Part shown: one piece after another, positions 4,389 through 45,668 of the stretch
How the letters are laid out: every line of letters begins with the position of its first letter
Position numbering within the stretch: position 1 is the stretch's first letter
From: a virus
DNA length: 64,000 nt
Reading direction: 5' to 3' (one strand)
IMG/VR virus record: IMGVR_UViG_3300034279_001754
Span: 62,001-126,000 of that record
The notes under the pieces: generated by a model
Database searches by the model: none
Told to the model about the DNA's origin: nothing
What the model saw: only the letters and a program-made list of their open reading frames with translations
Position numbers and translations under genes: made by a program

Positions 4389-4583
4389 TCATGACAAGCA
4401 CCCATTTTCTATAATTTGTAGGTTTAACTTAGGGTCAGCCATTAGGAGATCATTCCTCATGTTTTGGATTCGTAACCTGTTTTTAGAAGTTGCCTGAAGT
4501 TTGGCGTGGCTTTGAACGACTGTTTTACCATCCATCTCCACTAATTCCAATGTACTTTCTGGGAAATTTCTGGGCGGGATCAT
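4389..4583 (-). CDS. Hypothetical protein (64 aa)
   Basis: 64 residues starting MIPPRNFPESTLELVEMDGKTV; ATGA overlap with the upstream 56-residue gene shows coupling. Basic in the middle (SHAKLQATSKNRLRIQNMRNDLL). Not recognised. Confidence 0.5.
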   Translation of the reverse strand: MIPPRNFPESTLELVEMDGKTVVQSHAKLQATSKNRLRIQNMRNDLLMADPKLNLQIIENGCLS

Positions 4584-4750
4584 TGGGTTCTCGTATTCTT
4601 TTCGGTTGGTACTATAGTGACTCCACTATCGTCTTCACCTTCTTCATGAAGGGATCTTGTAGCAGAGGCTACGGAAAGGAACTCCCTCGCCATGGTACTC
4701 CAACTTAAACCATCCCAATAGCAACCATCGGCTCTAACAACTAGAAACAT
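4580..4750 (-). CDS. Small hypothetical protein (56 aa)
   Basis: Begins MFLVVRADGCYWDGLSWSTMAREFLS, ending TEKNTRTQ. A good Shine-Dalgarno (GGAGGT) stands 6 nt before ATG 4750, and a promoter of the TTGACT-N16 class is at 4774-4801, so this is the first gene of a short operon (4580, 4389, 4160, 4042). The N-terminus (..D..YWDG..WS) resembles short tail/virion-associated modules but is too small to assign. Confidence 0.6.
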   Translation of the reverse strand: MFLVVRADGCYWDGLSWSTMAREFLSVASATRSLHEEGEDDSGVTIVPTEKNTRTQ

Positions 4751-4773
4751 CGGGTGACCTCCACTCTGCCACT

Positions 4774-4801
4774 AGCATAGCAGGACCGCCAGAAAAGTCA
4801 A
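4774..4801 (-). promoter_or_regulatory. Sigma70-like promoter, N16 class
   Basis: Minus strand TTGACT (4796-4801), 16-bp spacer ending TGC, -10 TATGCT (4774-4779). Leader of about 20 nt to the gene at 4750. Confidence 0.55.
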
Positions 4802-4826
4802 TGGGTCAAGTTAGTACGGTCAGCAA

Positions 4827-5261
4827 TCAGTGACCTAGGGCCTGCTGAAGCAAGCTTTGGTTGTGCAAAATTTCGCTAGACATTGATTGCAAGTAGTCTG
4901 CTAAGCCTACCATTCTCGGGTCCCCTTTGAAAGAACTTGTATATTCAAAGAATAATGATACCATCCCATTGACTGCCATTGTGTAGTCTAAAGTTAGGGC
5001 CAGCAACGACAAGCAGTCATAGGTTTGCATGGAAATAGCGGGACCAGAAAATTCAGGGAAATCTGGATTGTAGCCACAACCACGCAACCTCTCGATGAGG
5101 CCGTCCATTAGGCCGTTAAGGGAATCATATACCTGGTCAAACAGCAAATGACATTCATAGAAATTACTACCACGTACATTCCAATGAGCCATGTGCAACA
5201 CAATGGTTGCATCATTCAGGAGTTTGACAGTTTTTTTAGCATAGACGGCGAGTTCTTCCAT
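4827..5261 (-). CDS. Dps-like mini-ferritin
   Basis: 144 residues, four-helix bundle expected. Dps proteins oxidise and store iron with peroxide and can coat DNA. The ferroxidase-region signature is present: LHMAHWNVRGSNFYECHLLFDQVYDSLNGLMDGLIERLRGCG, matching the Dps pattern H-W-N-x-R-G ... H-x-L-F-D-x-x-Y ... D-x-x-x-E-R-x-x-x-x-G. The usual Lys-rich DNA-binding N-terminal tail is absent, suggesting oxidant protection rather than DNA compaction. A phage copy could limit oxidative damage in a photosynthesising host (inference). Confidence 0.8.
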   Translation of the reverse strand: MEELAVYAKKTVKLLNDATIVLHMAHWNVRGSNFYECHLLFDQVYDSLNGLMDGLIERLRGCGYNPDFPEFSGPAISMQTYDCLSLLALTLDYTMAVNGMVSLFFEYTSSFKGDPRMVGLADYLQSMSSEILHNQSLLQQALGH

Positions 5262-6240: not shown

Positions 6241-7314
6241 TCACTTCAGAGTATACCACCCTTCTCCCCAGAGATTATCCAAATCTGTGAATACCTTGTC
6301 GTACCTCCTGCCGCAAGCTTCAAGGCTGTAACGGCTGCGAGCAATTTCTGCTATTTTCTGGCGGTCCATGTCCCCAGCATTGTGGCAAGCATCAACCCAA
6401 TCTTGTAACGTATGGCAACGGAACCCGGTAGTTCCCTCAATGACGGTTTCTGTAAAGGCCCCGTAATCTACCCCGATAAGGGGGGTTCCACAAAGCATCC
6501 CTTCGACGCCAGACCCACCAAAAGGCTCAGTAAATGTCGTGGGCATAAGGCAAGCTCGGGCATTTCGTAGGAAGTCATTTCGTTCTTTACCTTTTAAGGG
6601 ACCAACATATCGAATATTAGGGTGTTGCCAGGGGGTGGGGTCACCCTGACCAGCCAGGAAAATCGGGTATGGCACATGGTCTGCAAGTGCTTTGATTGTG
6701 TCTAAGCCCTTGAGGGGAGTTATCCTGCCTAGGAACGCCAAGTATTCTCCGGTCTCAAATGATGGTTGCCAATCATCGATGTCGAAGTAATTGGGAATCA
6801 CCCACTCGTAATTGTGGCCGTTCCGATTCTCTTTCCCTTGGTGATAATGCATCCATGCGTATGACTCATAGATTTTTTTTGTCCCGGGCATTGTGGTCGG
6901 ATACCCAATTCCCGTCTCAACGTGTGTGTTTTTAGGAAATTCACCCAACAGCCTAGAATGGGCATGGCCGAATGGGTGGCAAATTATGTCACGGGTTTGA
7001 ACCCGTTCGTGTAATGCTGGAATCAGTCGAGATTCAAAAAGCTGGTGCCCCTCGGTGCCGACTGTAGCATCGTCCCCATGGAAACTGGTACCGGGGCGGT
7101 TGCCGTATAACCGGTCAAATTCTGGTTCCGTAAGCATAGTAACATGCTCGGATGCGTTGGCTTCGGAACCTTCATTTGCGTATTCAATTACGGTGTAACC
7201 TTGAGCCATCATCATCTTTGCAAAGCGTAATGCCTTGCCAGTGAATGCACAATGGCTATATTGTTGGGTGGGTTGAGTGTGGAAAATTCCGATGAGGTGC
7301 AGGGTTGGTTTCAT
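6241..7314 (-). CDS. GT4-like glycosyltransferase (GT-B fold)
   Basis: 357 residues. The C-terminal half is a GT-B Rossmann domain: EYLAFLGRITPLKGLDTI (nucleotide-sugar binding start), IFLAGQGD, then TTFTEPFGGSGVEGMLCGTPLIG, which carries the E-x7-E pair of GT4 retaining enzymes, and GTTGFRC near the end. The N-terminal GIFHTQPTQQYSHCAFTGKALRFAKMM is the acceptor domain. Substrate unknown: phage DNA, virion proteins or host surface polysaccharide. It sits beside the fibre genes, which favours virion or surface glycosylation (inference). Confidence 0.8.
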   Translation of the reverse strand: MKPTLHLIGIFHTQPTQQYSHCAFTGKALRFAKMMMAQGYTVIEYANEGSEANASEHVTMLTEPEFDRLYGNRPGTSFHGDDATVGTEGHQLFESRLIPALHERVQTRDIICHPFGHAHSRLLGEFPKNTHVETGIGYPTTMPGTKKIYESYAWMHYHQGKENRNGHNYEWVIPNYFDIDDWQPSFETGEYLAFLGRITPLKGLDTIKALADHVPYPIFLAGQGDPTPWQHPNIRYVGPLKGKERNDFLRNARACLMPTTFTEPFGGSGVEGMLCGTPLIGVDYGAFTETVIEGTTGFRCHTLQDWVDACHNAGDMDRQKIAEIARSRYSLEACGRRYDKVFTDLDNLWGEGWYTLK

Positions 7315-7422
7315 TTTGTGGTTATTGGAAATTTTATAGTAAGGTACTTAAAGTTAGTTGGTGCTACGGGCCAGATAGAATATCGAAGTGTGGCATGGCA
7401 GAGGCAGAAGGGGCCCAGGGTG

Positions 7423-8373
7423 CTACACCGTGGGAGCGTTAACCTTGTACGGGTGGTCTGCGGCTAGGATGCTTTGTAAATTCCAACCCGCCACCGGACC
7501 GGCCAAATAACCCTCTACCAGTTGAACGGTAGCAAGGCTGGTGCCAGGGGGAAGAATAACAATCTCATATATTTCGCCAGTAAGTGGAACTGCGTTGTTG
7601 CCAAGCGCCCCGAGTTGCATCTGGAATGAAGCATTCCCGGTAGCAGCGGCAAATGTATCTATGTTATTCTGGATTGAGACGCCATTGATTCTGATTATTG
7701 ACCTGTTTGCAGCTATTGCGCTGCCAGGGTTACCGATATGCGAAATTATGACAGGCGTATTGCCTGGGTGTACGTTGTCTGCTGTCTGATTTAATGCCGC
7801 GTTCGTACCCGACACCCCTCTTGATATTAGGGCAATCGCTCTGTCGTTCCTGGGGAGACTAGCTCTATCATCGTAGATTAGGTAGAAACCAGTGTTGGCG
7901 GACACGCCAGCATTTGTTCCCAGTAAACCGTAAACTGCATTAGGGTTACTGCTGTTTCCGGCTTTCCATACGGCTACGATAGTTGCGCCTGCGCCAGCTG
8001 CAGTATGCAGAAAATTCCACGTTGCTGCCGAACTGGCGGAGGTAAGCCACTGTGAGCCGTTAAATGTTAGCGAAGCCTTACCATTCAACGCATTTGGCGT
8101 AATGGTAGGCTGAGTTCCGCTAGTTGCTTGGTCAAAATTGCGCCCATTCCCTTTTCTGTCCCGCAGCTGAGAAACCCCTGTTGCGATCGTAGTCGTAGCC
8201 GTATCGTACGGCGCCCCCCACCACTCGGTGGCAGTTTGGGTTGGGGTCCATGGAGTTGTCCCCACCCTCCGCCTAGGAACAATAATCACCGGTTGCACCT
8301 CACGATTCGGTAGCCCAGCGGCAGGGGTGATCCATGGCGGGGGGAAACGCAATCCATCATTCCTCGATTCCAT
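7423..8373 (-). CDS. Tail-fibre protein with LamG/ConA-like domain
   Basis: 316 residues from ATG 8373 (overlapping the upstream stop). A Pro/Arg-rich start is followed by a concanavalin-like jelly roll: TEWWGAPYDTATTTIATGVSQLRDRKGNGRNFDQATSGTQPTITPNALNGKASLTFNGSQWL, the usual start of LamG-type sugar-binding folds (WxD...DKSGNGxxxxQ...P...GxxxLxFxG). The domain ends GEIYEIVILP, also typical. Likely the receptor-binding tip of a fibre. The stretch 7315-7422 downstream holds no gene or clear signal. Confidence 0.65.
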   Translation of the reverse strand: MESRNDGLRFPPPWITPAAGLPNREVQPVIIVPRRRVGTTPWTPTQTATEWWGAPYDTATTTIATGVSQLRDRKGNGRNFDQATSGTQPTITPNALNGKASLTFNGSQWLTSASSAATWNFLHTAAGAGATIVAVWKAGNSSNPNAVYGLLGTNAGVSANTGFYLIYDDRASLPRNDRAIALISRGVSGTNAALNQTADNVHPGNTPVIISHIGNPGSAIAANRSIIRINGVSIQNNIDTFAAATGNASFQMQLGALGNNAVPLTGEIYEIVILPPGTSLATVQLVEGYLAGPVAGWNLQSILAADHPYKVNAPTV

Positions 8374-9022
8374 TAACCCAACCCGCGAGTTGCTGCCCGT
8401 TGGCGTCGGTTGTGGCCATTTGGCTAACCACAAAGTCAATAGGGCCGGCATTCCCGGCGGCTTCGATCTCGCTGTACAACTGGGCTAACCTGGCGTCGTT
8501 GTGGAACGATGCTTGTAGCAGCGCTTCGTGTCTTGCGATTAGATTTGTGAACTGCGGCAAACGGTTATTTGCTGCCACCTGCTTCTCCGCGTATTGCAAC
8601 TTCTCGGTGTAACCGTTCTCCTGGGGCCATAACATCGCGTTGTAGCGGTCAGCATAGCCTTTGGCTAGTATTTTCAGCTCAGCTATTGTGCGACGCTTAA
8701 TGTTTTCGGAACGTACATAGGTTCCTTTGGGATGACCATCGGGAGCCCCACCAGGTTTCATAACCAGGTTCCACCCCGAAGTCGTATCGTCAACATGGAA
8801 TAGTTCTGGGTCAAATGGGACAGGTGTGAATGGCACTAGCTCGTAGTAGTCAGCAGGTTGATCATGGGGGCGGCCATATTGAAATGGCCATCTACTGCCA
8901 GCGGGGTTGCGAACTTGACCGTCAGTGACGGCCACAAAAAGCTTAATACTTTGGCCTTCTTGAGGGCCATCCTCGTAATACTCAATGCCAGTGATGGGAT
9001 TAGTGGTGATAGCTGAGGTCAT
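8357..9022 (-). CDS. Hypothetical fibre-region protein
   Basis: 221 residues. N-terminal half is beta-rich (MTSAITTNPITGIEYYEDGPQEG...), the C-terminal half helical (AELKILAKGYADRYNAMLWPQENGYTEKLQYAEKQVAANNRLP), the arrangement seen in phage tail-fibre assembly chaperone-like proteins. It lies between two fibre genes with 2-17 nt junctions, supporting a fibre-assembly role. No specific family recognised. Confidence 0.5.
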   Translation of the reverse strand: MTSAITTNPITGIEYYEDGPQEGQSIKLFVAVTDGQVRNPAGSRWPFQYGRPHDQPADYYELVPFTPVPFDPELFHVDDTTSGWNLVMKPGGAPDGHPKGTYVRSENIKRRTIAELKILAKGYADRYNAMLWPQENGYTEKLQYAEKQVAANNRLPQFTNLIARHEALLQASFHNDARLAQLYSEIEAAGNAGPIDFVVSQMATTDANGQQLAGWVNGIEE

Positions 9023-9024
9023 GA

Positions 9025-11814
9025 TTAGGAATAACGAACAATAACTGTAAAAATGTGACCAGAAGAGCCAGTGCCGACTGCGTTAAGGTTGACCCCGAGA
9101 GTGTCCCCGGTTGTAAGGGTCAAGGGGGCGATTAAAGTAGATGTGACATTAGTGAAGTAACCAGTTACGGTACTTACTGCTGCTAGAGAAGCGTCAGCAC
9201 TTAAGAGGTTTGACCTTGTGCCGCTGCGACGGGCGTAGAGCATTGCCTGACTTGTACTGCTGCCAGTGGAAACTGGAGAGCATTCCCAGTAAGCTGCTAT
9301 AACCGTACACGCCCGGAGAACTGTTGTTTCAACGTAGTTTGCCCCCGGTATTGCGGTTTCACCCCTATTGGAAACAACAAGCTTAATAATGTCTGAGGGG
9401 ACAAAAGTGCCACTCTCGATGGATAGCCCCCCGGACAAGGTTGCTCCAGCAGCAACGCCGCCATTATTGTAAATAACTTGGCCCGTGGTACCAGCAACTG
9501 GGCCTGTTGCCCCCGTGGTACCAGCGGCGCCTGTGGCGCCTGTGGCTCCAGATATGCCTATGGGACCTGTTGCCCCGGAAACCCCGATGACGCCAGTGGC
9601 CCCAGTAGCACCGATTGGGCCTGACACCCCAGTTACACCCTGGGGCCCAGTTGCTCCGGTGGTTCCGACCCCAGTGGCACCGATAACACCAGTTGCCCCT
9701 GTCACCCCGATAGGGCCAGTTGCTCCCGTAGATCCTTGAGCACCGTTCACTAGTGCAAGGAATAATGAATGGTTATTGCTGAAATTGGTTGTCCCTGTCC
9801 CGGAAGAATTCAGCAGGGATACAGGATATTGCCAGTAACTATTGGGGGTGCCAGGATTTATGTTGGACGGTGTGCCGTTAATCAACCAAGTTTGGTAATT
9901 CGAACTATCGTTTCTATCTTGTATAGTAAATTTTTCAGTCTGTGTTAAATTCGATAAGAAAATATCGATGTCTGTGTTGTCGTCCGTTAAATGACTAATG
10001 TTTAATGCGGTTGAGCTGATTTGTGTGGCATTGTTCCAGATTAAGCTTCCCTGGCCGGGATTTCCCGTAGTGGCCGTAGTTTTGGCGCTGTACAGGAATA
10101 GACTAGAAGAATACCCTTGGGGACCAGTGGCCCCTGTGCTACCCGATAAACCAGTGGCCCCCGTGGTTCCAACCCCGGTAGCTCCAGTTGCCCCTGAAAC
10201 TCCAACAACGCCAGTTGCCCCAGTGATTCCTATCGGTCCCTGTATCCCTGTGGCACCAACGGGACCGGTTCCACCAGAAGCCCCAGTCGCCCCGATGACG
10301 CCAGAAGCCCCTGTACTTCCTATTGCCCCTGCTACACCTGTAGCACCAGTTGCCCCGAAACCTGTTGCCCCGGTTGCTCCTGTAGCCCCGGTCGCACCCG
10401 TTGTGCCAACAACGCCAGTTGCCCCGGTTGCCCCGAAACCTGATGCTCCCGTTGCCCCGGTTGCCCCATCTGCACCGGTAGCCCCGGTTGCTCCTGACGC
10501 TCCAAAACCTGACGCCCCGGTTGCTCCTGACGCTCCAGTCGCACCTATCGCTCCGGTAGCTCCGGAAACTCCAATTCCGGTAGGTCCAGTTGCCCCCGTT
10601 GTGCCAACAACGCCAGTTGCTCCTGACGCTCCAGTTGCTCCTGACGCCCCGAAACCAGACGCTCCAGTCGCACCTATAGCACCTGTTGCTCCTGACGCTC
10701 CAATAGGCCCAGTGCCCCCGGTTGTGCCTGCTGGCCCAGTGGCCCCGGACACTCCAGTAACACCAGTGGCTCCGGTAGCCCCAGACGCCCCGAATCCTGA
10801 CGCACCAGTTGCACCTGTAACTCCTGTTGCCCCTGACGCTCCAGTAGCTCCAGAAGTTCCAACTCCGGTGGGTCCGGTTGCCCCCGTTGTTCCAATGACA
10901 CCGGTAGCGCCTATCACACCGGTAGCGCCCGTTGCTCCTGACGCCCCGAAACCTGATGCCCCGGTAGCACCGGTTGCTCCAGAAGCCCCGGTAGCACCGG
11001 TTACTCCAAAACCAGTCGCACCATCCGCACCGGTAGCCCCGGTAGCACCTGATGCCCCAGTTGCCCCGGTTGCCCCAAAACCTGATGCCCCGGTTGCTCC
11101 AGTCGCACCATCCGCACCGGTCGCACCGGTCGCTCCCGACGCTCCAAAACCAGTCGCACCAGTTATACCAATCGGCCCAGTTGCTCCTGACGCTCCGGTA
11201 GCTCCCGACGCTCCAAAACCAGTTGCCCCAGTGTCACCAATCGGCCCAGTCGCCCCAGACGCTCCGGTAGCTCCTGACGCCCCAAAACCAGTTGCCCCGG
11301 TCTCCCCGGCAGCCCCGGCTAGTCCAGTTGCCCCAGTGTCCCCAATTGGGCCCGAAGCCCCAGTCGGACCGGCTACCCCAGTAGGCCCAGTGTCCCCACG
11401 GAAGCTAGACACCCATTGGCCACCTGCCAGGCCAACATACCAAACTGAAAGATACGACGACAAGGTATCAAACCATAGGGCGCCGTTTACAGGATTCGGG
11501 GGGGGGGATGCCGATACGGAAGCACACGGGGTGCATCCACTAGGGGACGAAGTAACCTCCTTCCACTGCCCAGGGGTTCCAGGTTCTAGGACCCATATAT
11601 AAAGAAATTCGCTTAATGTGTTAAACCAGAAAGACCCTTGGAGAATTGGGGGAGATGGTTGAGAAGCAGATACGTAGATCGGGACTGTAGTCGGTTCAGG
11701 CTCAGATAAGTTAATCCACTGCCTTCCGTTCCAACGGTAGTCAGATCCTTGCCATGTGAAAGTTTCCCCTGGCGTTGGATTTGGTGGAAAATTTGGTGGA
11801 AAATTATTGGTCAT
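9025..11814 (-). CDS. Collagen-like tail-fibre protein
   Basis: 929 residues. A short anchor-like start ([21 protein letters not shown]) is followed by two WxxxLSxxLxxW-like repeats, then a long Gly-X-Y collagen region ([13 protein letters not shown] type) from about residue 135 to 550. A non-collagen insert of about 120 residues follows ([20 protein letters not shown]... to LALVNG), then a second shorter Gly-X-Y block and a beta-rich C-terminal cap resembling BclA/C1q-like trimerisation domains. Predicts a long trimeric fibre. The DNA is a patchwork of near-identical 9- and 18-bp units and therefore prone to length change. Confidence 0.8.
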
Positions 11815-16662: not shown

Positions 16663-16861
16663 CCCTCTCCCGGTCTTCTTCGGATTTGATGAAATCCTTA
16701 AGGTCTTTGACATATACACGAAGATCTTGGGCCTTTTGAAGATGCCAATGTTGTTTAGTTTTCAAGTAAAGCATCATGTGGTTATCAATGGCTTTAAGCA
16801 AGCTATGAATTACTGGGTTCCACGGGCCCCTTATTGGGTTATCCCATTCTCTTTTTGACAT
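16634..16861 (-). CDS. Hypothetical protein (75 aa)
   Basis: 75 residues, MSKREWDNPIRGPWNPVIHSLLKAIDNHMMLYLKTKQHWHLQKAQDLRVYVKDLKDFIK..., Trp/His-rich and helical with a charged tail. Its 3' end contains the promoter for the next unit. It follows the endolysin gene by 26 nt. Not recognised. Confidence 0.55.
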   Translation of the reverse strand: MSKREWDNPIRGPWNPVIHSLLKAIDNHMMLYLKTKQHWHLQKAQDLRVYVKDLKDFIKSEEDRERVDKGSDHGV

Positions 16862-29855: not shown

Positions 29856-30763
29856 CCAGGGGTTTACCCTGCTGAATGTTACCATTCAGAGTAGACTATA
29901 TCTTCACCCTTCGTTTCCTTTAGGTTGGAAGGGGACACTCGTTTCGAGTCACTTGACCCTACTCCCTCTCGGGATAGCCGTTAGGCGTTTAGTAATTTAT
30001 CCAACTGGTAACTGTACTTGAGATCCAGAGCTTTTAAGGCTTCTTTTTTAGTTAAGTACGTTATACCGTTTAGGGTCACCTGAATAGCCATGGGGTTTCC
30101 TCCCCCTGAATATTTTTCACGAATAGAGTTAAGATACTCTTCTTTGTGGTGACTGCCTCGTCTGTTTGACATGAACTCCGATTTCTGCTTCTTGAACTCA
30201 TCTGACCTGACTTTTCCGGTATTAGCAATGGAAATAGCGTCCTTTGAGGATTGGTCGTGTGTTCTTCCGTAGAATGGATTGTTTTCCCCACGAATGGCAT
30301 CCGGATTATTCTTATGGAATTCCCTTAAGGATTCACGCCTTCGTTCATTTGCTTCCTTTGTAACTTCACCACCTTTAGCGGTTTTGCATACATTGAACGA
30401 GTTTCCCCAGTCCATTAAATCTAAATAGACTTGCTCGATTTCCCTTATTTCTCTTTCTGTACAACCTGAGAGGTTCTCTAGCAATGTAAAATTGAAAGAG
30501 TCTTCCCCATAAATTGAGAAAGCGTTTTGGAGATGGGGATTTACGTGATTTCCTTTTCGTAGAGATCTTAAATGTTTACTCCAACGGCCCGGTACCTCTA
30601 CGGATGATCCGATGTACCCTTTACCATTGGTTTTACAGACAATTGAATAAACTCCACTTAGCACGGGATTGCCCTTGTTTTAGAGATTTTACCCTCTTTA
30701 GGGGTTCCCCCGTTTAGAGTGTGTTTTTTACTGAGCGTTACCGCCCAGGGGAACTAGAGAGTT
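29856..30763 (-). ncRNA. Group I intron 3 (carries GIY-YIG gene)
   Basis: 908 nt. Core: CTCTAAACGGGGGAA..., AAGGGCAATCCCGTGCTAAG, R element CCTAACGGCTATC, S element GAAGATATAGTCT (P7 pair GGCTA/TAGTC), then AATGGTAACATT hairpin and GGGTAAACCCCTGG 3' end. It shares its core and 3' end, at equal length, with intron 2. Boundaries were chosen to restore the reading frame and may be off by a few bases. Confidence 0.75.
29981..30664 (-). CDS. GIY-YIG homing endonuclease in group I intron 3
   Basis: 227 residues from GTG 30664. The N-terminal nuclease domain has GVYSIVCKTNGKGYIGSS (GIY and YIG halves), RWSKHLRSLRKGNH and the catalytic Glu region further on. A NUMOD3-type motif (NPFYGRTHDQSSKDAISIANTGKV) and a NUMOD1-type C-terminal DNA-binding element (AIQVTLNGITYLTKKEALKALDL) follow. 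The GTG start falls inside the conserved intron core CCGTGCTAAG, so translation would compete with ribozyme folding. Drives intron homing. Confidence 0.85.
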   Translation of the reverse strand: MLSGVYSIVCKTNGKGYIGSSVEVPGRWSKHLRSLRKGNHVNPHLQNAFSIYGEDSFNFTLLENLSGCTEREIREIEQVYLDLMDWGNSFNVCKTAKGGEVTKEANERRRESLREFHKNNPDAIRGENNPFYGRTHDQSSKDAISIANTGKVRSDEFKKQKSEFMSNRRGSHHKEEYLNSIREKYSGGGNPMAIQVTLNGITYLTKKEALKALDLKYSYQLDKLLNA

Positions 30764-30911: not shown

Positions 30912-31169
30912 CCGGGACTTAACCCAGCTAAATGTTACCATTTAGAGCAGACTATATCATATTCCCTTAGGAATCTTCCCGTTTCGGATCGCTTGATCCT
31001 ACTCTCTTTCGAGATAGTCGTTAGGCTTCGTATCCCCATGGTCTCATGCCTTTACAGCAGAAAACTCTGAAAATACTTTAGCACGGTAGGTTGCCCTTAA
31101 GTATCAAAGGGTATTCCCCGTTTAGAGAAGTTTTCTCTAGGACATTACTGACCTAGGGGGCTACTAGTT
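30912..31169 (-). ncRNA. Group I intron 2
   Basis: 258 nt, ORF-less. Core elements parallel intron 3: TTCTCTAAACGGGGAATACCC, AAGGGCAACCTACCGTGCTAAAG, R element CCTAACGACTATC, S element GATATAGTCTGCTC, the AAATGGTAACATTT hairpin and a GGGTTAAGTCCCGG 3' end. Removal restores TTA across the exon 2/3 join (NG-L-TELATPF). Confidence 0.7.
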
Positions 31170-31248
31170 AACCCATTTGTGATCATGATCTTAGTCTCCT
31201 CAGCAGAAAGGAATTTCTTAAGAGAAGATAAGGATGTGTCGTCTTTAT
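31170..31248 (-). CDS. Primase/helicase-type ATPase, exon 2
   Basis: 79 nt internal exon: (Y)KDDTSLSSLKKFLSAEETKIMITNG(L). The LKKFLSAEETKI helix resembles the segment between Walker B and sensor in D5/P4-type helicases (L-K-x-L-x-x-x-D/E). Flanked by introns 1 and 2; the frame only makes sense after splicing. Confidence 0.6.
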
Positions 31249-31550
31249 CCTATTGTTCGGTCAAACTTCGTTACAGTTCAACCCGAGGTTCCCCTCAGCT
31301 ACAGGTTTCCCAGTAGAGCAGACTATATCTTCATCCCTACTTTCATAGGGAGCTTCGCGTTTCCCCTCACTTGAGGGTACGGAGTAAACTCCTAGTCGTT
31401 GAGCCTCTTTAACATGATGGTACCATATTGAAGTTGGCTGCTGATTGCCCATTGTTTCATCCTCTAGGATTATTAGTTAGTGTTGAGCCAACTACCCGAG
31501 GCTCTTAGGGGTTTCCAGCAAATAGCGAAGTTTTACTTGCGCAAAAGTCT
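31249..31550 (-). ncRNA. Group I intron 1
   Basis: 302 nt. P1 is clear: exon end TTGCGT pairs with intron GCGCAA with the terminal U-G pair. P element ATTTGCTGGAAACCCCTAAGAGCC, Q element ATCAGCAGCC, R element CAACGACTA and S element AAGATATAGTCT are textbook group I. The predicted 3' end (GG before ATAAAG) allows a P10 pairing with CTTTT near the 5' end. No intron ORF of note. Confidence 0.85.
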
Positions 31551-32481
31551 ACGCAATGTCACTCATCGCAAAGGACTTAACACCAAATCGTTCTTCAGTG
31601 GACTTAAAAGTCCAGATTGAAAATCCGCATTTGGAAAAAGCAGCGGTCATACTGTTAAAGCATTCGGATTTCCCAAGTCCAGGATCCTTACCAACTACAA
31701 CCCCTGCCATACGGGCAGTATGTTGAACTGCTTTGTCTTTACCTGGTGGGAGGTGATTAGACCTACCTACACCGATCCTCCCAATAATTAGCTTGAGAAT
31801 TTCTAACTCAGCTTCTGGAAAAATCGTGAATACATCCGACAATTTAACCTGACGAAGCACAGGATCAAACCAATCCCTGTCCGGGACCCAAATCCGGGGA
31901 TTAGTTACAACAGTTCCCCCCAACCTAGCCATCGGATCAAACGTATGGGCAAAATCAAACTCTGGGTAGAAATTTTTCGATTGGCTGATTTTCTGCATCT
32001 TCAACAGACGGGCCGTAAAAGAAGCTAGATCGCTATCGCCTGGTTTCGGACGGTGTAGCGGCTCCCAGAAAGTTCGAACTTCATCTTCGCACAACCCAGG
32101 ATAAAACACCTTCTCAATGTCTTCAAAATCTGCCATTTCGGTGATGTCTTGAAGTGGTTTGAAGGTATGGGGATACTTAATCCCTTTGACTTCCGGGGGG
32201 GCCGCAGGTTTTAGGATCCGGTGATTAACGTGGGGTGCGCCTTCTACGAGGTCTAGGATGTAACCCTTCGCCTTTAGTAGGGCAATACCCTTATTATACA
32301 ACTCACTTACCCTGACAGGCTCTTTTTTCTTCTTACCTTTCTTGTCTTCGGAGTCTTTTGGATTCTCCCCCTCGTCTTTTTCTGAGGAAAAAACCCTAGC
32401 CTTCTTCAATTCTTGGGCTTGATTGAAAATGGCGATTTCTTGTTTGGTACTCCCTGTACCACCTGAATAGGGGTCTGGCAT
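31551..32481 (-). CDS. Primase/helicase-type ATPase, exon 1 (Walker A)
   Basis: 310 codons plus one base. N-terminal 75 residues are Lys/Glu-rich. Walker A is VVGKDPGLGKSE near residue 264, followed by a strand and KSTEERFGVKSFAMSDIA; splicing continues with YKDD, a Walker-B-like acid pair. Motif order (A in exon 1, acidic pair at the 1/2 join, motif-C-like in exon 3) fits SF3/D5-type primase-helicases, the replicative helicase role. Without splicing the frame stops 1 codon into intron 1. Confidence 0.7.
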
Positions 32482-32510: not shown

Positions 32511-32538
32511 CAAAGAAAGACCCCGGTTGATGCCGGGG
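32511..32538 (-). terminator. Intrinsic terminator
   Basis: Minus strand CCCCGG-CATCAA-CCGGGG perfect 6-bp stem followed by TCTTTCTTTG. Ends the transcript of 32755..33729; the 184-bp IS607 derivative lies between that gene's stop and this hairpin. Confidence 0.75.
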
Positions 32539-32560
32539 CTAGTTTTAATCCGGGTCAGTT

Positions 32561-32744
32561 CCGATAGAATTTTGCTAACCTAAGTTAACAATGCACAGGT
32601 ATTAATACCTGAGGGGCTATCTCCCAAAGTCTCAAGAATTCTTGAGACGCTTTTTACCCAGATATTCTGGGCACCATTTATGTCTCTATTGACACAATGG
32701 CTATCATCAGTATTTAGTAGCGATTCTACTACTGTTTAAGAACC
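32561..32744 (-). mobile_element. IS607 deletion derivative (MITE) retaining omega-RNA end
   Basis: 184 bp. Positions 32561-32708 match the tnpB-side end of the complete element (43177-43324) with one visible mismatch, and 32709-32744 match its tnpA-side end (44902-44937) exactly. Everything between (most of tnpB, all tnpA) is missing. Flanked by GG like the full copy. It lies harmlessly between a stop codon and its terminator. Contains both palindromes of the putative omega-RNA scaffold. Confidence 0.85.
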
Positions 32745-32754
32745 CTCGTGGAGA

Positions 32755-33729
32755 TCAGAAAGCGAGAGAGAAGCTTTCGGGGTCTTCCACGAATGTTTGG
32801 CATCTCAAGACGCATTTTGCGGTTGGGAAGCCATTGTAATCCCCATGCTCAGTGACTTTGAGCACAGCGGGTGAATCAGGAGTAATAACTGGATCAGCAG
32901 CTAATGTCTTCTTGAGGGCATTGTTAGGTTCGACGATAGCCCAATCAGAAACCTCTCTTTCTTCGGTGACCCATTCACCTTCAACTTGAGTGCGAATCGG
33001 AGCAACAAAGGGCTCGGAAACTTGCACTTGCATGAAGTATTTGATCCCGTATTGACCACCTTCTTTGGCACGGTAAGTCGTTACATTGTACTCACCAAGG
33101 GGCAAATGTGCTACCTTAAGGAAGGGTCCAACCATGCGCTCGCCGGTACCGAGAGATTCACCGCGCTTGCTGAGGTCACTTGCGATTTGGACTTTTTCAG
33201 CAATTGCTTCGGGATTCTCACCGAGGAGCAGATCCAGTAGTTCTACTGAGATTTTATCTTCGTAGTCAGCGGAACGGATGGGAATTGGCAGCGTGTACAG
33301 GGTACCGTCAGCGGTTGCTGAAACTGCGAGAGCAGGCTCTTTGTATTTGCCAATTTGTTCTTCCTTGAAGGAAAGTTTGGTTCCCTTCCCGATGTTTTCG
33401 GTGGTGATTTTATCTGTGCTTACTAGCAGGGGGATGTCACGATCACCCCAACGGATGACTAGTCCTCTTTCTTCCGTAGAGAAGACAGTAGGAGAGTAAA
33501 GGCGCTTGAATACACCGTTTGCATCCGCACGAACAGTAAATGTGTTGGATTCCATGTCAAAATCTTCGCCAGTCAATGCTTTGAAGATAGTGGCAAGGCC
33601 CAGACGGTATGTCTCAGGTAGAGCTTTGTTCGGGATGTCGGTGTATGCCTTGACGTAGGTTTTAGACTCAAGGCGAGCGCGATTTTTGTCGTCGAGTTGA
33701 GGATTGATTTTAAGTGGTGTTACGGCCAT
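32755..33729 (-). CDS. Monocistronic unknown protein (candidate abundant DNA-binding protein)
   Basis: 324 residues from ATG 33729 (MAVTPLKINPQLDDKNRARLESKTYVKAY); the frame upstream of it contains the leader. Beta-rich middle (FTVRADANGVFKRLYSPTVFSTEERGLVIRWGDRDIPLLVS) and C-terminus TFVEDPESFSLAF, an acidic-aromatic tip somewhat like single-stranded DNA-binding proteins. It has its own promoter and terminator, so it is a separate, probably highly expressed unit beside the helicase gene. An SSB role is a hypothesis; no OB-fold signature could be confirmed. Confidence 0.55.
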   Translation of the reverse strand: MAVTPLKINPQLDDKNRARLESKTYVKAYTDIPNKALPETYRLGLATIFKALTGEDFDMESNTFTVRADANGVFKRLYSPTVFSTEERGLVIRWGDRDIPLLVSTDKITTENIGKGTKLSFKEEQIGKYKEPALAVSATADGTLYTLPIPIRSADYEDKISVELLDLLLGENPEAIAEKVQIASDLSKRGESLGTGERMVGPFLKVAHLPLGEYNVTTYRAKEGGQYGIKYFMQVQVSEPFVAPIRTQVEGEWVTEEREVSDWAIVEPNNALKKTLAADPVITPDSPAVLKVTEHGDYNGFPTAKCVLRCQTFVEDPESFSLAF

Positions 33730-33787
33730 TTTGTTCTTTGAGTAGAATGTGTGGTTCCATGCTCTATTGCTTGGCACATTCATCTCT

Positions 33788-33815
33788 ATTGTAGTAAGGT
33801 GCCCCCGAAAGTCAA
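33788..33815 (-). promoter_or_regulatory. Sigma70-like promoter, N16 class
   Basis: Minus strand TTGACT (33810-33815), 16-bp spacer, -10 TACAAT (33788-33793). Leader of about 50 nt to ATG 33729. Confidence 0.6.
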
Positions 33816-41133: not shown

Positions 41134-41789
41134 CAGGACCACCCCCTATTGCGTACTTTTCGGTGTTGGGGCGCCTTCTTCTTATTTTTTATGTCGGTGT
41201 TCTTTTCTAGGGAATCCAACGACTTCTCGTCCATCCTATAGGTACACACCCAGCCCTGCTCAGTAGGTAAGATCTCAAATAGGAACTTGTATTTATCAAA
41301 TTTAAATGAGCCAGAAAAGGTTCCGTCCTCGTCTTGCAGGAAATTATTCGTTGGAGACGGAAAATTCCCGGACCTATCCCTTATCGTATCCACCTTCTCA
41401 CCAAACACACTATAAATAACTGCTGACAGAACCTTCTGGGCTCTTTCAGACGAACTCAAATTATCTTCAACAAAGTCTAATGATTCCTCTTGCCCATTAG
41501 AAAAAATACCACCCAAGTCAAGGTGCTCTATGGATTCAGGATCAGGCCAAAAATCAGGCTCTACTTTACTTAGCAATTCGATGGCTTCATCTAGCTCCCA
41601 ATTTTCTAACTCACCATCTATAGAAAACTTAGAAAAAGCCGACAGCAACGATACATCCCCATCCTGGAAGCAATGGCTAAAATGCTCAGAGTAAGTCTCA
41701 GGAACGCATTCAAAATCCCCACGACTAGCTTCGTAAAGAAGACGAGCCATAGGGAGTGCTTTTGCTAGGTATGCTGAATCGGGATTCAT
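41133..41789 (-). CDS. Hypothetical protein, paralogue of 5557..6183
   Basis: 218 residues. Shares LYEASRGDFECVPETYSEHFSHCFQDGDVSLLSAFSKFS and VIYSVFGEKVDTIRDRSGNFPSPTNNFLQDEDGTFSGSFKFD with the protein at 5557..6183, plus an acidic centre; here there is an additional Lys/Arg-rich tail (NKKKAPQHRKVRNR). First gene of the tail unit, after a GGGTAAAA box and four 14-bp repeats. Function unknown. Confidence 0.6.
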   Translation of the reverse strand: MNPDSAYLAKALPMARLLYEASRGDFECVPETYSEHFSHCFQDGDVSLLSAFSKFSIDGELENWELDEAIELLSKVEPDFWPDPESIEHLDLGGIFSNGQEESLDFVEDNLSSSERAQKVLSAVIYSVFGEKVDTIRDRSGNFPSPTNNFLQDEDGTFSGSFKFDKYKFLFEILPTEQGWVCTYRMDEKSLDSLEKNTDIKNKKKAPQHRKVRNRGWS

Positions 41790-43100: not shown

Positions 43101-43178
43101 TGATTTGAGAGTTGATTTTGAAGCGTAGTTACTATGGACTTGAGGTCTTCAATTTCCTTGTGCAGGATGGAGATCTCC
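43097..43178 (-). pseudogene. Severed 3' end of thyX (beyond the IS607 insertion)
   Basis: Minus strand after the element reads GG-AGATCTCC..., encoding EISILHKEIEDLKSIVTTL... QLSNQ and a stop. Joining it to thyX at one GG gives the uninterrupted frame ...LLYKDK-EISILHKEIED... This is a coiled-coil-like tail now detached from thyX and no longer translated with it. Confidence 0.8.
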
Positions 43179-43324
43179 GATAGAATTTTGCTAACCTAAG
43201 TTAACAATGCACAGGTATTAATACCTGAGGGGCTATCTCCCAAAGTCTCAAGAATTCTTGAGACGCTTTTTACCCAGATATTCCGGGCACCATTTATGTC
43301 TCTATTGACACAATGGCTATCATC
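43179..43324 (-). ncRNA. Candidate omega-RNA scaffold at the tnpB end
   Basis: In TnpB transposons the 3' end of tnpB and the element end encode the guide RNA, with the guide read from flanking DNA. This segment holds a 14-bp palindrome at 43213-43226 and a 20-bp perfect palindrome at 43245-43264, and is the part conserved in the MITE. The guide for this copy would be the host sequence following the terminal GG, starting AGATCTCC. Inferred from the family; limits uncertain. Confidence 0.45.
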
Positions 43325-44407
43325 TTGTATAATTTTAGAACCCCCTAAAGAATAGTTGATTCTTCCGGTCCAAGACAAAGTTTTTGATGTGTAGGCTTCA
43401 TTTACAATTAACAGTAATTTATTAAACTCTTCACATTTATTCTTCAAAAAACATTTAAATCTATAATGTGACCAAGTTAATAAAGAACGTGCGGTTTTTG
43501 AATTTAGTTTTCTCTTACCTCTTTTAACCATTTGGCTAACGTCAAATGATGGTAAAAAGATAATGTCAAAATGTTCAACTAGAAATTTGGAAATTTTATG
43601 ATGCATTTCATCAACGAGATTTTTAATCTTGTTTCTCATTCTTTTAATCGCTTTTCCGATCCTTTGTTTTTGCTTTGAAGTTGATTTTGATTTTTTTGAA
43701 ATCAGGTTATCCAAATGATGGCAAAGTCTCGTAATTCTTCCAATGTCCCCATTTCCCAAAAGTCCAGAAAATTCTGGATTATAAAAAGTTTGGAAAGTTC
43801 GGATTCCTGGATCCAAAGCAACAACTCTAGTTTGGTTCTCGCTAAGAGTCGTTGCTTGCTCATAAGGAATAATAAGATAATAATTGCCATTGTCTAATGA
43901 CAATCTTGAATCCATAATTTTTTGAGGCAATTCCTCACTTATTTTCAATTCACCTAAAATAGTATGATAAACTCCTTTTTCCTTTATCGCGGATTTTGGA
44001 ATGTAAATCGTTTGCTTACCATCCTTCCTACTCCTATAACTAACTTTGTGCCATTTGTCTTTTGTTATTCCTTTATTTTTTCTCTTACACATAGAGAACG
44101 CTTTGCAGCAGTCTCTAATCGCAACAGATTTTATTTGATAGGGAACATCGGACGACCATTCTGGGAGTAATTTTAGTAATGGAGTTTTTATAGTTTTCCA
44201 ATTTGTATTTTGTCCACTTTCATTTAAAAATTTAACTGTTTCATTAAAAGCAAATCTAGAAGCCCCAAACCAATTATTAAGAATTGATTTTTGGGTCTGG
44301 GTTGGGTAAATCCTTATCTTCTTTGATTTGATTTTTATACTTTCGCATCCCGTGAATTCTACAAGAGAAGACGTGGATGATTGAAAGAATGTCGGATACG
44401 AGTTCAC
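43196..44407 (-). CDS. tnpB: TnpB RNA-guided nuclease, rearranged RuvC site
   Basis: 403 residues if started at GTG 44407; the conserved part begins KSKKIRIYPTQTQKSILNNWFGASRFAFN. RuvC-I D199 is in VALDPGIRTF; RuvC-III D370 is in NRDINGARN. At the canonical RuvC-II Glu (E-D-L-N-V) this protein has P-S-F-D-V; a Glu appears instead in VNEAYTSKT (E337), the rearranged site described for Fanzor and a subset of TnpBs. The zinc-finger cysteines are absent (SLSWTGR..., SLGGSK). Frame is intact. Start uncertain: no ATG near the conserved domain. Confidence 0.8.
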   Translation of the reverse strand: MNSYPTFFQSSTSSLVEFTGCESIKIKSKKIRIYPTQTQKSILNNWFGASRFAFNETVKFLNESGQNTNWKTIKTPLLKLLPEWSSDVPYQIKSVAIRDCCKAFSMCKRKNKGITKDKWHKVSYRSRKDGKQTIYIPKSAIKEKGVYHTILGELKISEELPQKIMDSRLSLDNGNYYLIIPYEQATTLSENQTRVVALDPGIRTFQTFYNPEFSGLLGNGDIGRITRLCHHLDNLISKKSKSTSKQKQRIGKAIKRMRNKIKNLVDEMHHKISKFLVEHFDIIFLPSFDVSQMVKRGKRKLNSKTARSLLTWSHYRFKCFLKNKCEEFNKLLLIVNEAYTSKTLSWTGRINYSLGGSKIIQDDSHCVNRDINGARNIWVKSVSRILETLGDSPSGINTCALLT

Positions 44408-44870
44408 TTTCGGGGCTACTTGCAATTTGGTTGAGAACCACGAGTTCTCCACCGTTTTTAACGATGAGATACTCAACGAGTTCAAATCCGAATCTACAAA
44501 GTCTGTCACGCTCGGCAACCACAAGTTTGATTGAATTTCCTTGCAATAATCGTTCCAGAATGGTACGCAAACCTTTTCGTTTAAAATTGAGTCCAGAGCC
44601 AACATCAGAGATGATCTCCGCTCCTGGGTACTTGGAGATGAGATAATTTTTCTGATTGTTGAGGTCGTCTTTTTGTCTAACACTAGAAACTCTACAGTAA
44701 AGAATTGTTTGCAAACTATTTTGTTTTTGTTGTATAAAGGACTCAATGTTGAATCTTCTCTGTCCAGAAGGGGTTTTAATTGTATCAATAATACCTTCGT
44801 CGGCATATTTTCTAAGAGTATTTGGGTGTAAGCCCAGTTGTTTACGAGCCTCCTTTAATGTTACATACAT
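44277..44870 (-). CDS. tnpA: IS607-family serine recombinase TnpA
   Basis: 197 residues. MerR-like helix-turn-helix at the start (YVTLKEARKQLGLHPNTLRKYADEGIIDTIKTPSGQRRF), then the resolvase catalytic domain: LYCRVSSVRQKDDL with Ser62, ISDVGSGLNFKRKGL, AERDRLCRFGFE, and the C-terminal FSCRIHGMRKYKNQI characteristic of IS607 TnpA. Overlaps tnpB in a different frame. Intact, so the element may be active. Confidence 0.9.
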   Translation of the reverse strand: MYVTLKEARKQLGLHPNTLRKYADEGIIDTIKTPSGQRRFNIESFIQQKQNSLQTILYCRVSSVRQKDDLNNQKNYLISKYPGAEIISDVGSGLNFKRKGLRTILERLLQGNSIKLVVAERDRLCRFGFELVEYLIVKNGGELVVLNQIASSPESELVSDILSIIHVFSCRIHGMRKYKNQIKEDKDLPNPDPKINS

Positions 44871-44921
44871 ATTTATTTAGTGGTATTTGTTATTTGACAT
44901 TAGTATTTAGTAGCGATTCTA

Positions 44922-45668
44922 CTACTGTTTAAGAACCTTATCCTTGTAGAGAAGGGTGCCTGTTTGAGCGTCAAACAACGAATCGTAAATCGTGGGGAAT
45001 TGAGTCGCAAATACCGAACGTACAGCTCTTGCAAGTTCTACGTGTTCCCACTGAGCTACCCCCTGATCGTCCCTTACGTTGATGTAATGGATGAAAGAAC
45101 GAACGTTACCGGTGATGTAAAGACGGGTATATACACCTTCAGGGAGAACAAAACGTGCTAGTTCTTTGGCGATACCGCGCCCAAGGAGGTTATTATAGGA
45201 AGAAATCGCAGCTTTGTAAGCAAACTCAAACTCAGCCCACATGAAGTCAGTTAGACTATTATCTTCGGCGACAAAACTATTTTGCCGGTTCTTGGTATCC
45301 TGAACTCTCGCTTCTTCGGGCATGTAGAATAGGTCCTTGTAGGTAGGGAGACCATTGGTGTAGTTCCCCATGAAACCTTGATCTTCATACCTCCCAGAAA
45401 ATTGCTGAAAGCAAAAAGACCGGTGCCTTAGTGCCTGAATTGAGATAGCCAGAGGGGTGATGACTTCGACTGACATTGTCGCATTTTCAAACACACTCCA
45501 ATGTCCATGTTTAGCGCAATGCTTTAGTAGACCCGAGATTTTAGGGTTGCTTTGATCTTTGCTTGTCACCCTCGCAATGTATGCAATGTGCTCCTCAGCA
45601 TTGGGGGTAACGGTAACGAGACGGGACTTGCTAGACCCCTCAATAAACCAGGGATTGTTATTTTCCAT
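44922..45668 (-). CDS. thyX: Flavin-dependent thymidylate synthase ThyX, 3' end replaced by IS607
   Basis: 248 residues from ATG 45668. Makes dTMP from dUMP with FAD and methylenetetrahydrofolate. The ThyX motif RHRSFCFQQFSGR (RHRxxSxxxxSxR) is present, and ISIQALRHR, ARFVLPEGVYTRLYITGNVRSFIHYINVR complete the fold. The catalytic core is intact; only the last four residues (VLKQ) and the stop come from the IS607 end, replacing a native tail of about 26 residues. Likely still functional. Confidence 0.9.
   Translation of the reverse strand: MENNNPWFIEGSSKSRLVTVTPNAEEHIAYIARVTSKDQSNPKISGLLKHCAKHGHWSVFENATMSVEVITPLAISIQALRHRSFCFQQFSGRYEDQGFMGNYTNGLPTYKDLFYMPEEARVQDTKNRQNSFVAEDNSLTDFMWAEFEFAYKAAISSYNNLLGRGIAKELARFVLPEGVYTRLYITGNVRSFIHYINVRDDQGVAQWEHVELARAVRSVFATQFPTIYDSLFDAQTGTLLYKDKVLKQ

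Follow-up and report, generated by a model that had tools for sequence, protein, structure and literature searches.

A 184-bp sequence in a viral genome is a non-autonomous derivative of an IS607 element that, on balance, appears to work as a guide-RNA gene, also known as a "ghost" omega-RNA locus. It keeps the omega-RNA region and both ends of the transposon and has lost the nuclease gene. The window analyzed here is a 64,000-nt stretch made up of positions 62001-126000 of virus record G000 (134,024 bp).

The 184-bp unit and its insertion site

The unit is located on the minus strand at 32561-32744 and runs from GG to GG. Its right end (RE, the tnpB side; 32561-32708) is identical to 43177-43324 of a full IS607 element at 147 of 148 positions. 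Its left end (LE, the tnpA side; 32709-32744, GGTTCTTAAACAG...) belongs to a second match, 32705-32744, that is identical to 44898-44937 of the same copy at 39 of 40 positions. The E-values, 8e-73 and 4e-14, are far past chance. The two matches overlap by 4 bp at the joint, where the ends are fused near CATC, and the unit is thus composed of 148 + 36 bp. A preliminary description of this DNA had identified the sequence as two fused IS607 ends of these lengths and as a MITE-like derivative in which both palindromes and the terminal GG are retained. All of this is borne out: both ends of the full copy are present, and the internal genes are lost. The guide-side flanks it gave, AACTGACC for the MITE and AGATCTCC for the full copy, are also as stated, and these flanks confirm that the two guides differ.

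A protein search with the neighboring gene (32755-33783) retrieved 17 related viral contigs. The site is empty in four sisters in which this gene is 99% identical, i.e., L058 (G010), L059 (G011), L060 (G001), and L072 (G002). The empty allele reads ...TTTCTGATCTCCACGAG-GG-AACTGACCCGGATTAAAACTAG..., also given as CACGAG-GG-AACTGACC, and the occupied allele of the window reads ...CACGAG-[GG-TTCTTAAAC...CTATC-GG]-AACTGACC... The empty site has a single GG that becomes two upon occupation, and no other duplication is observed; the insertion is therefore exact from GG to GG, the signature of IS607. An assembly chimera was rejected: the unit has a unique joint, and its flanks come together just as they do in the sister contigs. 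The 184-bp MITE was found in one genome only, G000. The unit may have moved as a MITE, or a full copy may have inserted and later lost its interior, since both routes give the same product.

The MITE sits in sense between the stop codon of the upstream gene and the terminator of that gene. The order, all on the minus strand, is a promoter-like site, the gene (33783-32755), 10 bp, the MITE (32744-32561), ~21-22 nt of flank, and the terminator. The gene belongs to phrog_25892, and its transcript would read through the MITE. The intrinsic terminator, identified in a sequence scan, is located at 32520-32539, directly after the guide. The promoter-like site (TTGACT-16-TACAAT; 33788-33815) is a match no better than chance expects. 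A similar layout is observed in an unrelated 161-kb viral contig, L055, which contains a 306-bp MITE of a related IS607 element (RNA strand 4554-4859, reverse complement). This MITE is also in sense, a few nt ahead of a stop codon, and a terminator lies 21 nt past its right end. The same scan found no hairpin equally close to any of the five full-length elements examined. The L055 scaffold has a different 5' part (TTGAGCCCTCTGGAAG, common to L052). This motif was pursued as a lead and yielded just unrelated coding repeats.

The hosts are probably picocyanobacteria: the best annotated relatives of the upstream gene come from cyanophages, Synechococcus phage S-CBWM1 among them, and phage tail fibers are encoded in the window.

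Other mobile elements and unusual genes are present in the window. Three consecutive group I introns (29872-30143, 30928-31180, and 31299-31580, minus strand) follow a primase-like ORF (31549-32481), the first of which scores below the Rfam gathering threshold. A GIY-YIG/NUMOD3 homing endonuclease ORF is located at 29981-30664. The phage has, in addition to TnpB, several homing elements. A protein of 929 aa, encoded at 9025-11814 (minus), contains long collagen-like repeats (Pfam Collagen, E 6e-48).

The full-length element and its TnpB

The full IS607-type element, recognized by its end matches and domains, is located at 43177-44937 (minus) and is the presumed source of TnpA and TnpB. TnpA (44277-44870, minus; 197 aa) is a serine recombinase with a MerR-type N-terminal domain, and TnpB (43196-44605, minus; 469 aa from the probable start MLALDS) is of the pro-Fanzor type. 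PF00239 and a MerR domain are found in TnpA, and PF07282, PF12323, and PF01385 in TnpB. The guide of this copy is AGATCTCCATCCTGCACAAG (43157-43176, minus). The genes are encoded 10 kb from the MITE in the same genome, as the preliminary description claimed. Compared with relatives of 71-74% identity, both tnpB and the part of tnpA outside the overlap have a dN/dS of ~0.1, which indicates that both genes have been under purifying selection. The probable N-terminal part of tnpB overlaps tnpA out of frame by ~330 bp (44277-44605). Conservation backs the tnpB reading in this overlap, as do alignments to PDB 9b0l and a Vibrio phage TnpB.

The best solved relative of TnpB by sequence is the TnpB-like protein L79 (PDB 9b0l). 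The RuvC-I motif has a DPG in all six proteins compared, reading ALDPGIR or ALDPGVR (SLDPGVR in L011/L012). The displaced catalytic Glu (VNEAYTSKT), six residues before the zinc-finger position, is conserved, as is the final Asp (RDINGARN), and both motifs were aligned to L79. The CxxC...CxxC of the zinc finger is missing, and TLSWTG/TVSWNG and HCVNRD replace the four cysteines across the clade. The paper that defined pro-Fanzors recorded them from cyanobacteria only, and its search expression demands these cysteines (PMC10711439). Judged by its motifs, the cognate TnpB is therefore Fanzor-like ("pro-Fanzor") with a degenerate finger, the cysteines being a family feature that it lacks.

Full copies were found in viral contigs (L009/L015 and L010-L014), and no DNA relatives were found in annotated phage genomes. 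The right-end motif is absent from a collection of 84,980 prokaryote species, and a profile scan of the same collection for TnpB, in which the two short peptide patterns were weak, confirmed no relative and retrieved no cyanobacterial homolog. AlphaFold, given six sequences for TnpB, yielded a poor model (pLDDT 45) that was left unused.

Several further observations concern this locus. A perfect sigma-70 consensus, TTGACA-17-TATAAT, is located at 43306-43334 (plus strand), antisense to the 3' end of tnpB. It was noticed on a scan of the G002 site-3 solo (described below), the sequence of which matches the full copy there. The -10 element is lost through the MITE deletion, and the site is unconserved in L010-L014. 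Vibrio phages F100 and 184E37.1 (L144 and L145) encode a TnpB 35% identical to that of the window, without an annotated tnpA; it is flanked by an exonuclease/HNH region on one side and thyA on the other. In the window, an exonuclease gene and thyX flank the element, and both places are thymidylate synthase neighborhoods.

A structured right end and its gene-less copies

The right end contains a whole predicted omega-RNA scaffold. Its 114-nt core (32561-32674, minus), supported by folds and covariation, is also retained by solo right ends. The core is composed of hairpin 1 (32657-32671), hairpin 2 (32629-32648), the element GGG-AGATAG-CCC (32614-32625), hairpin 3 (32596-32611), hairpin 4 (32572-32591), and a possible pseudoknot strand (32563-32567), all on the minus strand.

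Ten right ends from diverged viruses (full, MITE, and solo) make up the structure alignment. The four hairpins and GGG-AGATAG-CCC are common to the ten, with hairpin 1 absent or different in L052 and L055. Standard pairs are observed in 95.3% of cells, and both sides have changed in 8 of 30 pairs. Covariation as high as observed was found in 0 of 500 shuffles, and pairing drops to ~50% when the partner is shifted by one base. Hairpin 2 of L052 is rebuilt via four compensatory pairs; hairpin 3 has one broken pair at site 3 of G002. The sole change between the right ends of the MITE and the full copy converts a G.U to an A-U pair in hairpin 1. Synonymous divergence is 0.33-0.40 in the tnpB codons that double as scaffold versus ~2.1 elsewhere. 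The loop AGAUAG can pair with the CUAUC beside the terminal GG (GAUAG/CUAUC). These bases never vary, so the pseudoknot is a predicted one here; the corresponding pseudoknot is needed in ISXfa1 (PMC10711439).

The claim that the derivative keeps the omega-RNA end is therefore supported by scaffold structure and covariation. The known IS607 reRNA of ISXfa1 is ~150 nt including the guide (PMC10711439). The scaffold sequence feared to be missing from the MITE is probably present: 148 nt are kept, and the solos persist with 114 nt. An Rfam search of the scaffold found no match, and RAGATH-18 gave none at the gathering threshold nor at E up to 5.

The preliminary description had also proposed a search of related phages for further copies of the 148-bp end. 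This was carried out, in scans that covered 2.9 million viral contigs, and revealed a third copy in G000 and gene-less copies in related phages. Right ends of 114-171 bp without a left end or tnpB are found at three tRNA-cluster sites of this phage group, one of which is occupied in G000, and in other viral contigs. The third right end of G000, outside the window at 41470-41583 of the genome, is 114 bp (112/114 identical), lies between two tRNA-Leu genes, and has no left end of any kind. Site 1 (G000, G001, and G004) has 114 bp beside tRNA-Leu(taa) and a common guide, TGAGCAATCAGTAACTTG. A clean empty site for this solo was not found; G002 and G003 are deleted there. At site 2 (G001, G002, and G003), 117 bp replace the 5' part of a tRNA-Met gene that is intact in G000 (...CCCAGA-GG-AATAGGAGTTC...). 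Site 3, occupied in G002 and unoccupied in G000 and G001, is a GG-to-GG unit of ~165 bp; a look-alike sequence within tnpB (GGTTCTAAAA in place of GGTTCTTAAA) forms its left end. A promoter-like TTTACT-17-TATACT is located just upstream and a tRNA-Lys-like sequence downstream. Another virus, L051, has a 162-bp solo in a tRNA cluster, with the final G lost. The right ends of L052 and L016 are cut off by contig ends. L051 also has an abiF RNA match above the Rfam threshold at 9021-9059 (plus).

The G001 record is 279,339 bp, and its ends share an identical 124-nt overlap, so it is probably a complete circular map. It contains the site-1 and site-2 solos and no cognate tnpB. Its only TnpB is 23% identical and is found in an IS200/IS605-like insertion. 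This element (L140; G001 6408-7972) bears TnpB and a broken-looking TnpA and occupies the place of window position 16782.

TnpB guides use approximately their first 16 nt. The predicted guide of the MITE is the flank AACTGACCCGGATTAAAACTA (32540-32560, minus), with a perfect match next to RRGG in G001, G002, G010, and G011. Wherever the 5' flank of a distinct insertion site is known, two purines precede the GG, whereas the occupied right end reads TCGG. RRGG followed by the first 16 nt of the MITE guide occurs once in each of these four genomes and zero times in G000. For the site-2 guide, RRGG plus the first 16 nt gives a single match in G000, located within the tRNA-Met gene, and no match in the other seven records searched, which include the carriers of this guide. 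Possible targets of the site-3 guide have drifted: G001 has a perfect match but is preceded by GGGA, and G000 has GGGG but two mismatches. The guide of the full copy is mismatched at positions 2 and 18 to the G001/G011 allele, which has ~31 extra bases between two GGs. A match to the empty allele is automatic after any insertion, so it proves nothing by itself. The functional claim therefore rests on the evidence of constraint and on the retention of the right end by itself.

Other candidate targets were rejected. Matches of the site-1 guide in L138 and L139 were attributed to chance, as no GG precedes them. The site-2 guide also matches an unrelated tRNA-Glu (L148), which reflects T-arm similarity, and the bases ahead of this match are CGGG, not RRGG.

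Proposed mechanism, alternatives, and known systems

In the proposed mechanism, the mRNA of the gene at 32755-33783 would continue through the MITE. In trans, TnpB encoded by the 43177-44937 copy would bind the structured 3' part of this transcript and trim it, leaving an omega-RNA with the following 16-22 nt (AACTGACCCGGATTAA...) as its guide. If a sister phage without the unit infects the same cell, TnpB would cut the empty site of that phage, where the guide sequence follows RRGG. At the occupied site, TCGG precedes the guide sequence, and this site would therefore escape cutting. Repair would copy the unit from the occupied genome, or the cut genome would be lost, and the unit would spread either way. 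Solo right ends in tRNA clusters resemble a ghost locus only in part, their left end being missing. They would work likewise, even in a phage without a cognate tnpB, which would depend on the TnpB of a co-infecting phage.

Several lines of evidence favor the ghost-locus reading. The insertion is exact, with an empty site in four sisters, and the sense position between stop codon and terminator is repeated independently by the L055 MITE. Scaffold covariation, the G.U to A-U change, and the low synonymous divergence of scaffold codons point to a constrained RNA. Purifying selection on tnpB and tnpA and retention of the DPG, displaced Glu, and final Asp also count in its favor. The derivatives of the nine sister-group records always keep the right end, and the guide plus RRGG matches are reciprocal, each absent from its own carriers. 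Fanzor ghost omega-RNAs (PMC10432273) and TnpB plasmid drive (PMC11870625) provide precedents. Counted against this reading are the loss of the zinc-finger cysteines in the whole clade, the broken hairpin-3 pair at G002 site 3, the occurrence of the MITE in one genome, and the two mismatches of the full-copy guide to the sister allele.

The main rival is ordinary IS decay, which is a real possibility, if short of an even chance. The MITE and solos would be recent, harmless deletion remnants of full IS607 insertions, with the RNA unmade or unused. The MITE joint does resemble a simple internal deletion, and site 3 could stem from deletion between GGTTCTTAAA and GGTTCTAAAA. Random decay is expected to leave left ends and internal pieces as well, yet a whole-element search of the nine sister-group records found no left-end-only or tnpB-internal fragments, and all derivatives there retain the right end. 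A left-end motif scan of all viral contigs returned full copies only, using a motif stricter than that for the right end. The copies may be young, given how little they differ from the full element, and insertions are tolerated in tRNA clusters. The presence of solos in G001 without a cognate tnpB also fits decay. The solos (114 and 117 nt), however, end on their 5' side just beyond hairpin 1, and two independent MITEs are in sense just ahead of a terminator. Between sisters, the site-1 and site-2 scaffolds are conserved at 226 of 228 positions versus 94% for flanks within ~1 kb (Fisher p = 3e-4), although the flanks closest to these solos are almost as conserved as the solos, as decay would allow.

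Two further explanations concern the role of the retained right end. The MITE could be a DNA-level passenger that TnpA moves in trans, with the guide-RNA part kept only for its overlap with the TnpA binding sites of the right end or as a terminator. In favor of this, the MITE has two intact ends with an intact GG at each, purifying selection acts on tnpA, and on the opposite strand hairpin 2 and the GCTTTTT after it resemble a terminator. This explanation is unlikely: the solos, which have no left end and are immobile by TnpA, still hold 114-117 nt of right end, the covarying hairpins span the whole 114 nt, and no T run follows hairpin 2 on the strand transcribed here. It is more improbable still that solo RNAs are decoys that soak up the TnpB of a co-infecting phage, protecting the carrier instead of guiding cleavage. 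Single CRISPR repeat units in phages work as RNA anti-CRISPRs (reviewed in PMC11656645), and the solos of G001, a genome that encodes no cognate TnpB, could act only on an incoming TnpB. Against this, the boundary between scaffold and guide (...CTATCGG) is exact in the solos of the clade, and a sister phage contains a perfect RRGG target for the site-2 guide; a decoy would require neither.

Gene-less derivatives of IS200/IS605 elements (PATEs) are known. Altae-Tran et al. reportedly described standalone omega-RNAs of IscB in 2021.

The ghost Spu-1 loci of the fungus Spizellomyces punctatus (Fanzor1) produce omega-RNAs that direct nuclease cleavage in trans (Saito et al. 2023, PMC10432273). As in these loci, the nuclease gene is gone and both ends and the right-end omega-RNA are kept. 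Ghost Spu-1 loci are ~550 nt, have terminal inverted repeats, and are located on a eukaryotic chromosome. In contrast, the units described here are 184 and 165 bp or single right ends, reside in phage genomes, have IS607 GG ends without inverted repeats, and are paired with a pro-Fanzor TnpB; their empty alleles are visible in sisters.

The element shares a serine recombinase TnpA, a GG core, the DPG, and the displaced Glu with cyanobacterial IS607/pro-Fanzor elements and ISXfa1 (Yoon et al. 2023, PMC10711439). Also in common are a right-end reRNA with a GG next to the guide and a GG-containing TAM, both of them predicted for the element here. Unlike the cyanobacterial IS607 elements, this element is cyanophage-borne, has lost the zinc-finger cysteines, and is accompanied by gene-less right ends. 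The RAGATH-18-derived reRNA of ISFba1 is likewise an IS607 TnpB guide RNA with a purine- and G-rich TAM (AGGAG, GAGGG; PMC11061315). The scaffold here has no RAGATH-18 match and overlaps the end of tnpB, whereas the ISFba1 reRNA lies outside tnpB.

Drive by TnpB elements that carry their own tnpB has been demonstrated for IS200/IS605 in plasmids (PMC11870625). In both cases, the guide fits the IS-free allele; there, IS-free replicons are cut and IS-bearing replicons are favored. In that system, a single element contains both nuclease and guide, whereas the drive units proposed here have a guide without a nuclease and reside in phage replicons. Viral CRISPR mini-arrays are also virus-borne guides against related viruses with a nuclease encoded elsewhere (reviewed in PMC11656645). 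Mini-arrays use host Cas and CRISPR repeats, whereas TnpB and a transposon end are used here. No paper on gene-less TnpB guide-RNA loci in phages or in IS607 was found in a search that covered few preprints and subscription papers.

A broader role is put forward tentatively and is rather doubtful. Standalone TnpB guide RNAs may be kept by selection in a cyanophage group for inter-phage RNA-guided homing and exclusion. Phages with ghost omega-RNAs of different guides, some of them lacking a cognate nuclease, would turn the TnpB of a co-infecting phage against the allele that is unoccupied in a rival. One such target would be a tRNA gene of the very phage that supplies TnpB. The loci described here are a testable case for virus-to-virus RNA-guided gene drive by units of 165-184 bp that contain no protein gene. 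Natural sequences are at hand for the empty and occupied alleles, the nuclease donor, and a carrier without the cognate nuclease. The separation of a guide RNA from its nuclease gene is a plausible step from transposon TnpB towards CRISPR-Cas12, and the candidate loci would place this step in phages.
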